DNA from: Aequorivita vladivostokensis
Lineage (GTDB): Bacteria; Bacteroidota; Bacteroidia; Flavobacteriales; Flavobacteriaceae
Length of the DNA stretch: 64,000 nt
Assembly (NCBI RefSeq): GCF_000952855.1
Contig: NZ_JSVU01000008.1
Span: 62,001 to 126,000 of the forward strand
Reading direction: 5' to 3'
Shown here: one piece after another, positions 50,020 to 55,012 of the stretch
Numbering within the stretch: the stretch's first letter is position 1
Layout: the number at the start of each line of letters is the position of its first letter
Made by a program: the position numbers and the translations under genes
Notes under the pieces: generated by a model
The model's input: the letters and a program-made list of their open reading frames with translations, nothing else
Database searches by the model: none
Told to the model about the DNA's origin: nothing

Positions 50020-50063
50020 GCGAAAATAGCTCTCCCGATAGCTATCGGGATGGTAAGCGCCAC
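50020..50063 (+). pseudogene. Truncated tRNA-Gly 5' copy interrupted by a palindrome
   Basis: GCGAAAATAGCTC (50020-50032) and TGGTAAGCGCCAC (50051-50063) reproduce the acceptor and D-arm start of the intact tRNA-Gly at 50078, but an 18-bp palindrome stands in place of the AGT of the D-loop. The upstream flank (ATATTCT) is also like that of the real gene (ATATTTCT), which points to duplication of the tRNA's 5' region. No anticodon arm is present, so it cannot be a tRNA. Confidence 0.8.
50033..50050. repeat. 18-bp palindrome inside the tRNA-Gly copy
   Basis: TCCCGATAGCTATCGGGA is a perfect palindrome, identical to the one at 50765-50782 and related to those at 20983 and 56453. Confidence 0.85.
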
Positions 50064-50077
50064 AGAATAATATTTCT

Positions 50078-50150
50078 GCGAAAATAGCTCAGTTGGTAGA
50101 GCGCCACCTTGCCAAGGTGGAGGTCGCGGGTTCGAATCCCGTTTTTCGCT
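50078..50150 (+). tRNA. tRNA-Gly (anticodon GCC)
   Basis: GCGAAAA pairs with TTTTCGC to form the acceptor stem, with discriminator T. The D-arm is GCTCAGTTGGTAGAGC, the anticodon arm CCACCTTGCCAAGGTGG holds GCC at positions 34-36, and the T-arm is CGCGGGTTCGAATCCCG. The 73-nt gene has no encoded CCA. It lies 114 bp before tRNA-Leu in the same direction and probably shares its transcript. Confidence 0.97.
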
Positions 50151-50249
50151 CAACCTTGAATGCCGATGCAATTCGGCATTTTTTGTTAAGTCCAGATTGT
50201 AATAAACAATCTATCCGAGGCTTTTGCAGGCTGAAATTAAACCTGCAAG

Positions 50250-50265
50250 GAGCGCAGCCGAAATG
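50250..50265 (+). repeat. Dispersed 16-bp element touching tRNA-Leu
   Basis: GAGCGCAGCCGAAATG is a diverged copy of the GAGYGCAGTCGAAGTG family. Its last base is the first base of tRNA-Leu. A small hairpin (GCAGG/CCTGC) lies just upstream. Confidence 0.5.
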
Positions 50266-50348
50266 CTCGAGTGGTGGAATTGGTAGACACGCCGGACTTA
50301 AAATCCTGTGACCATTTGGTCGTGCGGGTTCAAGTCCCGCCTCGAGTA
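50265..50348 (+). tRNA. tRNA-Leu (anticodon TAA)
   Basis: The acceptor GCTCGAG pairs with CTCGAGT (first pair G-T). The D-arm contains GGTGGAATTGGTAGACAC, the anticodon loop CTTAAAA gives TAA, a variable arm of class II type (GTGACCATTTGGTCGT) follows, and the T-arm is GCGGGTTCAAGTCCCGC. The 84-nt gene lacks encoded CCA. A terminator follows immediately. A broken copy of its 3' end lies 400 bp downstream. Confidence 0.96.
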
Positions 50349-50354
50349 CACCGC

Positions 50355-50386
50355 GAAACCCCTGTATTTTCAGGGGTTTCTTTTTT
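50355..50386 (+). terminator. Terminator after tRNA-Leu
   Basis: GAAACCCCTG pairs with CAGGGGTTTC around TATTTT and is followed by six Ts, 7 bp after the tRNA. Confidence 0.93.
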
Positions 50387-50479
50387 AAAACGCCTTTTTC
50401 AAAATATGGAAAAGGAACCAAAAAGCGAAAATCCAACTATAAGTTCACCTATAAATTTTGAAATTTGTATGGCTGAAAA

Positions 50480-50773
50480 ATGGTTTTCAACCTATATTCA
50501 AAATCGGTCGATGGCTATTATACTGGCAGCTGTTTAGATTTCACGGAACGTTTTCAAAGGCATTTGGACAAAACCTATTTCGATTCCTATACAAGAAAGG
50601 CATCGGACTGGATTTTATATTTAGCAATAAATGGTTTGGGCTATAAGCAGGTACGGAAAATAGAAAAGCATATCAAATCCATGAAAAGCCGAAGATATAT
50701 TGAGAACTTGAAAAAGTATCCTGAGATGGTGGCGTCACTTATCGAAAAATATGGTGCGGGTTCATCCCGATAG
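50480..50773 (+). CDS. GIY-YIG nuclease family protein, 97 aa
   Basis: LYSKSVDGYYTGSCLDFTER near the start holds the YIG part of the motif (as YTG), the catalytic Arg24 in FTERFQRHL and Glu62 in VRKIEKHIKSMKSRRYIENL. The GIY triplet is degenerate (VFN), and the other frame just upstream reads WFSTYI, so a small frameshift may have moved the start; the protein may be weakened or dead. The C-terminus is odd: its last codons (GAGSSR-stop) are read from a broken tRNA-Leu 3' end, with the stop codon inside the 18-bp palindrome. Small GIY-YIG genes of this kind are common beside flavobacterial tRNAs. It lies 131 bp after tRNA-Leu. Confidence 0.85.
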   Translation: MVFNLYSKSVDGYYTGSCLDFTERFQRHLDKTYFDSYTRKASDWILYLAINGLGYKQVRKIEKHIKSMKSRRYIENLKKYPEMVASLIEKYGAGSSR

Positions 50774-50796
50774 CTATCGGGACCCGCCTCGAGTAC
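50754..50796 (+). pseudogene. Truncated tRNA-Leu 3' copy interrupted by a palindrome
   Basis: GTGCGGGTTCA (50754-50764) and CCCGCCTCGAGTAC (50783-50796) repeat the T-arm and acceptor 3' half of tRNA-Leu (50265-50348). Between them, in place of the AGT of the T-loop, stands the 18-bp palindrome. The copy supplies the last codons and stop of the GIY-YIG gene. No 5' half is present. Confidence 0.85.
50765..50782. repeat. 18-bp palindrome inside the tRNA-Leu copy
   Basis: TCCCGATAGCTATCGGGA, identical to 50033-50050. Its TAG at 50771-50773 ends the GIY-YIG frame. Confidence 0.88.
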
Positions 50797-50798
50797 GG

Positions 50799-50832
50799 AA
50801 TCCCCTTTGTTAATAGACATTGGGGATTTTTT
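50799..50832 (+). terminator. Terminator after the GIY-YIG/tRNA-Leu fragment
   Basis: AATCCCC pairs with GGGGATT across a loop of about 16 nt, followed by Ts. Confidence 0.7.
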
Positions 50833-50893
50833 ATTTTGGATACCCCAGTAGTTTACGTCTTTTTCCTTTAAAATACTTTCAAATCTCGAGCAA

Positions 50894-50951: not shown

Positions 50952-51188
50952 TTATTGACCGTCAGTAGCGTCTTCTACAGCATCTTCGGTTTCCTCAGCA
51001 GCGTTCTCGATAGCATCGCCAGTGTCCTCAGCAGCTTCTTCGATAGCATCTCCTGTGTTCTCCATAGCTTCTTCTACATCGTTAGTTGTAGTTTCTGCAG
51101 TGTCGTCAACTTTTACGGTAGTCTCTCTGCAAGAGTAAACTGAGAATACTAGTGCAAGAGCGGCAAGTGATAAAAATACTTTTTTCAT
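50952..51188 (-). CDS. Small acidic lipoprotein, 78 aa
   Basis: A signal peptide with lipobox SVYSC near residue 20 is followed by RETTVKVDD and then an acidic repeated segment, in which ENTGDAIEEAAEDTGDAIEN and AAEETEDAVEDATDG show an 11- to 12-residue helical repeat. It resembles the three small lipoproteins at 54212-55012, which also start SCRE. The low-complexity acidic helix is likely surface-exposed in the periplasm. The function is unknown. It has its own terminator. Confidence 0.85.
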   Translation of the reverse strand: MKKVFLSLAALALVFSVYSCRETTVKVDDTAETTTNDVEEAMENTGDAIEEAAEDTGDAIENAAEETEDAVEDATDGQ

Positions 51189-54211: not shown

Positions 54212-54463
54212 TTAATTGTTCTCGTCAATTTTTATTTTGGTATCGCCATCCTCGTCCTTTTTAATCTTCACCTCCTTTTCATCTGTTTCCATTTTTATTT
54301 TGGTGTCGCCGCCGTCTTCTTTAATCTTCACGTCGGCTCCATCAGCCTGCATTTCCTGGATGATGGCTTCTTCTTCTGTTACTTCTTCCTTATTTTCTCG
54401 GCAAGAAATAAAACTTGCAGCTATAAAGGCCGCGCTCAAGGTAAATAATGCTACTTTTTTCAT
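54212..54463 (-). CDS. Small acidic lipoprotein, 83 aa
   Basis: A lipobox (SFISC) precedes RENKEEVTEEEAIIQEMQAD and a charged repeat in which DVKIKEDGGDTKIKMETDEK and EVKIKKDEDGDTKIKIDEN show an 8- to 13-residue period. It belongs with the lipoprotein genes at 54509, 54791 and 50952, which share the SCRE start after the lipobox. The repeat alternates Lys and Asp/Glu, unlike the acidic helices of its neighbours. Role unknown. Confidence 0.82.
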   Translation of the reverse strand: MKKVALFTLSAAFIAASFISCRENKEEVTEEEAIIQEMQADGADVKIKEDGGDTKIKMETDEKEVKIKKDEDGDTKIKIDENN

Positions 54464-54508: not shown

Positions 54509-54760
54509 TTAAATATCATCGGTTCCACCAGTACCGGTGTTTTCCTTAATTTCGTTGACTCCTTCCTGTATTGTATTTTCCACAGGATCGGTAGAGTCGT
54601 CATCTGTCATATCCTTCACTTCATCTTCCACGTCGTCAGCAGCGTCATTCACATCGTCTGCAACATCTTCAATATCATCAGCTTTCTTGTTTTCACGACA
54701 CGAAATAAAACTAGTACCGAATGTGAACATAAGTGCTAGAATTAAAATGGATTTTTTCAT
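54509..54760 (-). CDS. Small acidic lipoprotein, 83 aa
   Basis: A signal peptide with lipobox SFISC is followed by RENKKADDIEDVADDVNDAA and an acidic region with DDVEDEVKDMTDDDSTDP. The design is that of the lipoprotein at 50952-51188. It stands 45 bp upstream of the next small lipoprotein gene on the same strand; the three genes here are likely co-transcribed. The acidic, low-complexity helix has no enzymatic motif. Confidence 0.82.
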   Translation of the reverse strand: MKKSILILALMFTFGTSFISCRENKKADDIEDVADDVNDAADDVEDEVKDMTDDDSTDPVENTIQEGVNEIKENTGTGGTDDI

Positions 54761-54790: not shown

Positions 54791-55012
54791 TTAATCATCG
54801 TTTCCAATGTCCTCAATTTTCTTATCGATTTCCTCGTTTACTTCTTTGTCCACTTCCTTTGCGGCCCTTTCTAGTATGCCCTCATTTTCCCGTGTTTCAG
54901 GTTCCACTTCTACTTCTACCTCTCGAATTACTTCCCTGGTTTCAGTCTTTTGCTCGCGGCAAGAACCGAAGGCTAATGGAATGATGGCAAGGGCAATAAA
55001 TAGTCTTTTCAT
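54791..55012 (-). CDS. Small acidic lipoprotein, 73 aa
   Basis: The lipobox is in IIPLAFGSCREQKTETREV, with a helical mature part rich in Glu/Arg (IREVEVEVEPETRENEGILE) and Lys/Glu (EVDKEVNEEIDKKIEDIGND). It is the first of three similar genes in the same direction (54791, 54509, 54212). The shared SCRE/SCRExK start after the lipobox suggests a paralogous family. The mature charge pattern suggests a coiled coil; function unknown. Confidence 0.8.
   Translation of the reverse strand: MKRLFIALAIIPLAFGSCREQKTETREVIREVEVEVEPETRENEGILERAAKEVDKEVNEEIDKKIEDIGNDD

Follow-up and report, generated by a model that had tools for sequence, protein, structure and literature searches.

Integrase-borne islands and integrative and conjugative elements (ICEs) at the 3' ends of tRNA genes insert into the gene and restore its 3' end. 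The Rickettsia palindromic elements are short palindromes that land in genes, in frame; to our knowledge they are longer than the palindromes described here and have no nuclease partner. Here we describe a locus in a 64,000-nucleotide stretch of the Aequorivita vladivostokensis genome (contig NZ_JSVU01000008.1, positions 62,001 to 126,000; hereafter the window), where a broken 5' copy of tRNA-Gly is followed by an intact tRNA-Gly(GCC), an intact tRNA-Leu(TAA), a GIY-YIG-like open reading frame (ORF) and a 3' fragment of tRNA-Leu. The best explanation is that this locus belongs, in decayed form, to a family of mini-elements spread across the phylum and built around a short GIY-YIG nuclease gene and a partial tRNA copy that is split by a palindrome. 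By a small measure, we consider it probable that the family is homing-like and resides inside tRNA genes. Its units differ from islands and ICEs in having no integrase, in having direct copies that differ by a palindrome, and in occupying sites at varied tRNA positions. With roughly 75-105 aa, the protein amounts to a bare domain, unlike the nuclease domains of Slx1, I-TevI and UvrC.

Two described systems come closer. SegB is a free-standing phage GIY-YIG homing endonuclease that lies by tRNA genes, is implicated in cutting tRNA-containing DNA, and drives tandem amplification of a segment holding tRNA and nuclease by way of microhomology that the tRNA shares with the end of segB (Nat Commun 2026, PMC13096335). 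By analogy, SegB appears to be the closest tested precedent for the homing-like cycle proposed below. It shares with the mini-element a free-standing GIY-YIG enzyme adjoining tRNA genes and tandem amplification, but it is phage-borne, and neither a palindrome-split tRNA copy nor nuclease-less units appear in that paper's passages on SegB (PMC13096335). The mini-element, in contrast, was found in Bacteroidota chromosomes, and a phage collection held no match for the single query used. Repetitive extragenic palindromes (REPs) are short palindromes, some copies of which stand beside a gene for a small DNA-cutting enzyme, with non-autonomous copies elsewhere (BMC Genomics 2013, PMC3733652). In these three respects they and their associated RAYT proteins resemble the mini-element; however, REPs have GTAG or CGTC tags and RAYTs are HUH tyrosine transposases, whereas the mini-element has neither and is centred on tRNA genes (PMC3733652). 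The window palindrome TCCCGATAGCTATCGGGA and the inserts tabulated below have no GTAG or CGTC end tag, and the adjacent gene encodes a GIY-YIG protein in place of an HUH tyrosine transposase.

In the titles and abstract beginnings of open-access papers (subscription papers and preprints fall outside this literature), GIY-YIG genes with palindrome-split tRNA copies were undescribed among the matches listed. The unit of a bare GIY-YIG gene and a palindrome-split partial tRNA, in or out of arrays, fits no class known to us; its probable working mode resembles that of free-standing homing endonucleases.

Recurrence beside tRNA genes

A scan of the window protein against the GTDB contig set gave 34 loci. 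A search of 99 genomes, its own included, found nuclease matches in 24, and of 296 Bacteroidota genomes searched with a profile, 167 had a match at E<=1e-8. Three sets of loci were read: set A with 34 loci from close relatives, set B with 69 loci from across the phylum, and set C with 29 loci. Set B comprises the best 70 clusters by E-value among the matches listed, minus the window (G095:C224 was omitted, being the same as L070); among the profile-matched genomes, tRNA proximity was checked for these best 70 clusters only. Nuclease matches below 30 bits were removed before counting, and ARAGORN calls of "tRNA-SeC" were disregarded and taken as broken copies.

The nuclease has an intact tRNA no more than 500 bp away at 27/34 loci of set A, 60/69 of set B and 19/29 of set C, and the two are on the same strand in 106/106 loci. 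With tRNA fragments included and the distance set at 600 bp, the counts are 34/34 for set A and 66/69 for set B (all but L225, L235 and L245), against one locus each in reversed-locus controls. The isotypes in set B are Asn, Thr, Met, Phe, Ala, Asp, Val, Pro, Arg, Leu, Lys, Ser and Gly. An earlier note on this DNA, made from the sequence alone, had proposed a widespread GIY-YIG mini-element of about 450 bp beside tRNAs; the recurrence is borne out, while the tandem arrays described below have periods of mostly 300-410 bp.

The "other GIY" genes of the window's own genome do not serve as a clean negative control, as one of the three loci (L003, read at greater length as L016) is a tRNA-linked array. 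At this locus (C1, ~352,500), two GIY-YIG genes lie 356 bp apart by a tRNA-Met 3' remnant, and the broken copies hold the palindrome TCCGCCGCGGCGGA. The remaining two loci (L015, L017) gave weak or no tRNA matches, and long GIY-YIG genes (L006-L008) have no tRNA within the stretch examined.

All six relatives tested score above the PF01541 cut-off, and Y13, G15, R23 and E61 are invariant in 34 aligned sequences; the relatives are members of the GIY-YIG superfamily (PF01541). An AlphaFold2 model of the bare domain (predicted local distance difference test score, pLDDT, 93.5) resembles GIY-YIG domains in structure. The ratio of nonsynonymous to synonymous substitution rates was 0.10-0.48 in the seven of nine pairs that yielded a value. 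On a tree of 98 nucleases (98/107 labelled loci were kept; matches below 45 bits, short matches, sequences with stops and duplicates were dropped), the isotype label changes 30 times, against a shuffled mean of 69.9, and 0/200 shuffles were as low. Nuclease lineage is thus associated with tRNA isotype. We speak of association rather than history because tree support is weak and near-copies contribute.

Broken tRNA copies and their palindromes

At loci with a tRNA, a second, partial copy of it consists of two collinear blocks split by an insert in 24/27, 39/60 and 12/19 cases (sets A, B and C), and the insert has a dyad arm of at least 6 in 23/27, 34/60 and 11/19. A shuffled-tRNA control gave an expectation of 0.35, 0.60 and 0.55 broken copies, and of 0.00 with a dyad in each set. 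A CCGA..TCGG palindrome is present within 600 bp at 31/34 loci of set A and 51/69 of set B; reversed controls gave 1 and 3.

We tabulated 68 broken copies, with the window included as L196 and two loci of one array counted separately. The broken copy lies 3' of the intact tRNA in 52/68 and 5' in 16/68. Insert length is 15-30 nt, mostly 18 (26 cases) or 16 (16 cases); the insert starts with TCCCGA in 35/68 and CCCCGA in 16/68, and other palindromes are found too. The tRNA stretch replaced is 0-17 nt long, 3-8 nt in most cases of the main lineages, and for the most part its position recurs by isotype. Replaced bases are ATAAT at positions 36-40 of tRNA-Met (8 cases), GGTCC at 46-50 of tRNA-Asn (7 cases), GATTC at 57-61 of tRNA-Phe (6 cases), and CGAGTTCG at 51-58 or 52-59 of tRNA-Asp (8 cases, with CGGGTTCG in 1 further case); tRNA-Leu has a D-loop site starting at position 14 in 4 cases. 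By midpoint, the palindromes fall in the T-loop (17), anticodon loop (15), D-loop (7), variable region (7) and stems (22). The T-arm had been proposed as the target, and with 17/68 midpoints in the T-loop this is too narrow. Two further rules were considered and discarded: that the palindrome always replaces a loop (by midpoint, a loop or the variable region accounts for only 46/68), and that the stop codon of the nuclease always lies inside the palindrome.

Some of these copies are unusual. In L062, L068, L079 and L150, a broken tRNA-Val with the palindrome in place of its anticodon arm was called tRNA-SeC(tca) or tRNA-Gln(ttg) by ARAGORN, which is an annotation hazard or, conceivably, a sign of odd tRNAs. 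At L150:3008-3198 the palindrome is amplified eightfold inside one tRNA-Val unit, mostly with a 24-bp period.

Empty sites, unit boundaries and arrays

We read the window locus by way of the MutS C-terminus in 28 Aequorivita genomes. A nuclease match lies 3' of tRNA-Leu in 4/28 stretches (the window, as L082, and L084, L088 and L096); the nuclease of L096 is degenerate, and the L084 and L088 stretches are cut by contig ends. A fifth genome, G026, has the nuclease with an island between tRNA-Leu and the unit, and the contig of L100 terminates within a nuclease-less broken Leu copy. In 20/28 stretches tRNA-Leu is present with no palindrome behind it in the stretch read, while L093 has no called tRNA-Leu and L106 neither tRNA. 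The tRNA-Phe site is occupied at 6/25 readable loci and without nuclease at 19/25; among the latter are L276, from the genome of the window itself, and L284, where nuclease-less units are present. Two of 27 loci without a readable tRNA-Phe were excluded from this comparison, one of them in G020, where the nuclease is on another contig (L069, L292). Empty and occupied states of one tRNA site are therefore found between species of one genus: at both tRNA-Leu and tRNA-Phe there are sister species without the unit. The outcome that the earlier note had named as speaking against mobility, a gene that is always present with no empty sites, is thus not what is seen.

The terminators indicate where a unit begins. 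Those after the intact tRNA and after the broken copy are 68% identical in L267, 76% in L275 and 84% in L289. For the downstream flank of L267 the closest genome is G001 (0.77). The native terminator of G001 matches the second terminator of L267 (0.87) rather than the first (0.66), for which G003 is the nearest (0.89). In L275 the second terminator is the native one of G018 and G000, and the first is again nearest G003 (0.89); no empty locus matches the downstream flank above 0.64, and the upstream flank is equally near G018 and G003 (0.94). At tRNA-Leu in L096, judged by eye, a GAATCCCC-type terminator, native in other relatives, follows the intact tRNA, and a GCTTCTTC-type, resembling that of many empty relatives, follows the broken copy. 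In L284 the terminator after the last broken copy is unlike those within the array. Because the terminator after the intact tRNA is of foreign type and that after the broken copy of native type (clearly in L267, by eye in L096), there is modest evidence that the unit starts inside the tRNA gene, rebuilds it by bringing a new tRNA 3' end and terminator, and finishes with the palindrome. The tRNA-Leu and its fragment had been likened to the attachment sites that flank an integrated element. The form of this proposal is right, in that the unit appears to lie inside a tRNA gene, but the copies differ by a palindrome and the sole gene is the nuclease. No integrase was found in the unit: in L084, L088 and L096 the nuclease comes so soon after tRNA-Leu and its terminator that integrase sequence would not fit between them, and the occupied Phe units L265, L267 and L269 have space for the GIY gene only.

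Units also occur in tandem. In the nine arrays with unit values, pairwise identity is 0.89-1.00; L215 has five units (0.99-1.00 identical), L261 four (1.00) and L225 seven genes. More diverged gene copies are found in L241 (down to 0.49), L244 (0.08 over a fragment) and L256 (0.57). Other arrays are without nuclease. In L152 an intact tRNA-Pro is preceded by seven 86-bp tRNA-Pro units, of which six are identical and the other shows one difference; L163 has three 43-bp tRNA-Arg units, and L284 three tRNA-Phe units with an 86-bp period, the last of them degenerate. The genome of L284 (G016) gave no nuclease match in the 99-genome search. In the tRNA-Met array of L151 (G002), the first two nuclease starts are 2050 bp apart and the next pair 414 bp, as if another element had inserted. 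The draft contigs of L084, L088, L100 and L122 break off within the nuclease, within the palindrome or within tandem repeats that carry it, a pattern suggestive of collapsed arrays.

Palindromes elsewhere in the genomes

Exact copies of the window 18-mer number 0-32 per Aequorivita genome, with zero control matches in 99 genomes. Copies are more numerous in genomes with a nuclease match at E<1e-10 (7 vs 21 genomes, p=0.0008), a grouping cut that was picked after the fact. The short direct repeats that flank 45 distinct copies outside broken tRNAs are alike beyond chance (4.29 vs 3.13 nt, 0/500); part of this excess may stem from local low complexity and from a handful of orthologous or duplicated sites. 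The test excluded L118, L119, L123, L128, L129, duplicates and sites without full flanks, and kept L113 and L145, where the tRNA is farther off. Inverted symmetry of the flanks of these palindromes was not significant over 8 nt (411/500) or 12 nt (134/500) and was weak over 20 nt (39/500). For the intergenic palindrome L009 empty relatives exist; for L010 the single relative compared is occupied. The palindrome of L012 is carried by two relatives, and a third does not align there. This 18-bp palindrome (near 2000 in L012; C6:173652 of the window's own genome) is apparently in frame in a coding sequence (PDSYRD) and common to G012 and G018.

The window locus as a probable decayed member

The gene order and coordinates given for 50020..50796 by the earlier note were confirmed on re-reading the sequence and by ARAGORN (Table 1). 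Both broken copies contain an identical, perfect 18-bp palindrome and have lost AGT. Its 16-bp core has 8 sites in the 3.27-Mb genome, against 0 for the reversed control pattern, so that the two palindromes in the window copies are not due to chance. A third palindrome lies in a broken tandem tRNA-Arg(ACG) copy of the same genome, at the reverse-complement triplet ACT (L011); at ~1870-2195 of L011 (C5), two tandem broken copies precede tRNA-Arg(ACG), with hairpins in the D-loop and T-loop. The tRNA-Gly gene starts 160 bp past the end of the MutS query in the window and L084 and 102 bp past it in L083 and many others, which amounts to 58 bp extra in the window and L084.

Table 1. Coordinates of features at the tRNA-Gly/tRNA-Leu locus, in positions of the window.
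Feature	Position	Strand	Basis or remark
Nuclease-less unit at tRNA-Gly: partial 5' copy with palindrome, A/T-rich filler	50020..50077	+	58 bp
Palindrome TCCCGATAGCTATCGGGA in place of AGT, tRNA-Gly D-loop	50033..50050	.	
Intact tRNA-Gly(GCC)	50078..50151	+	ARAGORN
Intact tRNA-Leu(TAA), putative target	50265..50349	+	ARAGORN
Island remnant: upstream region and first codons of an integrase-like gene (ATG ~50470)	50350..~50500	+	Alignment to G026 (L102); right edge approximate
Short GIY-YIG nuclease gene, 97 aa	50480..50773	+	5' end probably fused to the remnant; TAG stop within palindrome
Broken tRNA-Leu copy: tRNA positions 58-68, palindrome, positions 72-85	50754..50796	+	
Palindrome TCCCGATAGCTATCGGGA in place of AGT, tRNA-Leu T-loop	50765..50782	.	
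tRNA terminator 3' of broken tRNA-Leu	50797..50840	+	End approximate; type is that after intact tRNA-Leu in sister species G012 (L084)

The nuclease takes its C-terminus from the tRNA-Leu fragment, as proposed: GGT TCA TCC CGA TAG encodes GSSR and the stop. The accompanying idea that some similar genes beside flavobacterial tRNAs have GSSR-type endings is not supported: among the genes listed this ending is read from the fragment only in Aequorivita tRNA-Leu(TAA) copies. Against PF01541 the window protein scores 18.9 bits, below the cut-off of 22.6. Its first motif is VFNL in place of VYIL, the Tyr being present in all other rows of alignment A1 that reach the motif; the relative L050 is also without this Tyr (VNIL), and a sister copy begins MATVYILYSK (L027/L055). 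Because of the VFNL replacement, the window copy is probably inactive.

Its 5' end appears to have another origin. Window sequence from 50350 to ~50500 aligns with sequence 3' of the same tRNA-Leu in G026 (L102), which there leads into an ORF that is presumably a tyrosine integrase, to judge from its translation. In G026 (C20:353,155-398,758), ~45 kb separate tRNA-Leu, followed by the integrase-like gene, from the GIY-YIG unit, probably an integrated island; nuclease and broken copy stand there behind a tRNA-Leu 32-85 segment. We infer from the alignment that an island once entered between tRNA-Leu and nuclease and that a later deletion fused the island's first codons to the nuclease. The earlier statement that no integrase is present thus holds for the unit, whose only gene is the nuclease, but an integrase-like remnant of a separate island precedes it.

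Farther along the window, short lipoprotein-like ORFs on the minus strand (50952-51188, 54212-54463, 54509-54760 and 54791-55012) have a common CRE lipobox region and acidic low-complexity tails.

A proposed homing-like cycle and its rivals

On our reading a unit consists of the 3' part of a tRNA with its terminator, the short GIY-YIG gene, a brief segment of that tRNA ending at a lineage-typical site, and an insert of 15-30 nt that is usually palindromic. The chromosome's own tRNA 3' end follows the unit, and a mirrored form lies 5' of the intact tRNA. The nuclease would cut an intact tRNA gene at the site of its lineage, and the break would be repaired by copying the unit from an occupied template, in a homing-like manner by synthesis-dependent annealing. 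Repair would restore the tRNA and leave a palindrome-split copy that is no longer cut; repeated cycles would add units and build arrays, and nuclease-less units may use a nuclease in trans. Here the cutting, the movement, the repair route and the role of the palindrome are inferred.

We also put forward, tentatively and as a possibility rather than an expectation, that one bare GIY-YIG domain suffices for a new class of self-spreading element, among the smallest. The protein would recognise a lineage-typical tRNA site and the conserved CCCGA..TCGGG palindrome, perhaps, like Slx1, in the form of branched or hairpin DNA. The element would insert while rebuilding the tRNA, form arrays, and mobilise nuclease-less units of 43-86 bp and bare palindromes of 16-18 bp in trans throughout Bacteroidota genomes.

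Several observations count against the homing-like cycle. Whereas a classical homing site is destroyed by its element, here the nuclease still has the intact target next to it; the broken copy is split by the palindrome, yet an intact tRNA adjoins it, and the cut site is only predicted. The cycle itself gives no reason why a palindrome would be needed. The terminator evidence is thin, with one clear case among six occupied Phe loci: both terminators are 97-100% identical in L265, L269 and L273 (identical at two loci, 97% at one), and the flanks of L275 and L289 do not settle which terminator is native. In set B, 26/60 tRNA-adjacent loci have no palindrome-bearing broken copy in the test used, and 18/69 loci have no CCGA..TCGG palindrome; Met, Asn and Leu each show additional, differing insert sites, and 22/68 midpoints fall in a stem. 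The tree is built from 89 columns with 8 of 95 inner branches starred, the Arg label is unclustered (4 rows, 4 changes), and isotype labels would also cluster under vertical inheritance or through near-copies. At least two loci occur in more than one set (L027/L055, L034/L057), and some genomes are represented by several loci. Finally, phage and plasmid collections gave no match (one query each) and a viral-contig scan confirmed 0 of 78 pattern matches, and hence no vehicle is pointed to.

The main rival, which we regard as rather unlikely, is REP-like: the 16-18 bp palindrome would itself be mobile or recognised, the GIY-YIG protein would bind and cut its hairpin and spread palindromes, in the way that RAYT transposases spread REPs, and tRNA genes would be favoured sites. 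However, the palindrome sequence varies by lineage (e.g. TCCGTTAGCTAACGGA, TCCGCCGCGGCGGA), palindromes in up to 6 copies are found in Aequorivita genomes that fall below the nuclease-match cut of E<1e-10, G002 has 10 nuclease matches but 1 exact palindrome copy, and the GTAG or CGTC tag is absent. Tandem units without nuclease (seven of 86 bp in L152, three in L284), and two terminators that are often alike within a species, would also follow from passive tandem duplication, in which tRNA hairpins cause template switching, broken copies gain palindromes and the nuclease is a passenger with another job. Passive duplication predicts neither the recurring sites of each isotype, nor the tracking of isotype by nuclease lineage, nor the foreign-type terminator of L267, nor the near-universal tRNA location of the relatives examined, and we consider it improbable.

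A role at the RNA level has still less to recommend it and seems to us very improbable. The nuclease would act on tRNA, or the hairpin-bearing broken copy would be a decoy or regulatory RNA in the nuclease transcript; replaced bases do lie in loops more often than the tRNA average (63% vs 38%), and some broken copies fold well enough for ARAGORN to call tRNA-SeC or tRNA-Gln. Yet L267 suggests insertion at the DNA level, and the GIY-YIG enzymes we know of cut DNA. Hardly credible, lastly, is the relic of an ordinary integrase-borne island, with tRNA-Leu and its fragment as the attachment sites of what was lost. The integrase-like 5' remnant at 50350 to ~50500 fits such a relic, as does G026, where ~45 kb separate tRNA-Leu from the GIY gene and broken copy, which stand behind the 32-85 segment; but that segment is separate from the palindrome-split copy, and L084, L088 and L096 leave no room for integrase sequence. 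An island relic is contradicted for the nuclease unit and valid for the remnant only.

Implications

If the homing-like reading is true, a family of units of mostly 300-410 bp, with a profile match in 167/296 sampled Bacteroidota genomes, would have been overlooked because its units resemble a stray nuclease gene and a damaged tRNA. Such a family would account for GIY-YIG genes that stand in tandem arrays, for some of the tRNA genes that are broken or mis-called, for assemblies that break at tRNA loci, and for a portion of the short palindromes in these genomes. It would also be a source of small natural nucleases with tRNA-isotype-specific targets.
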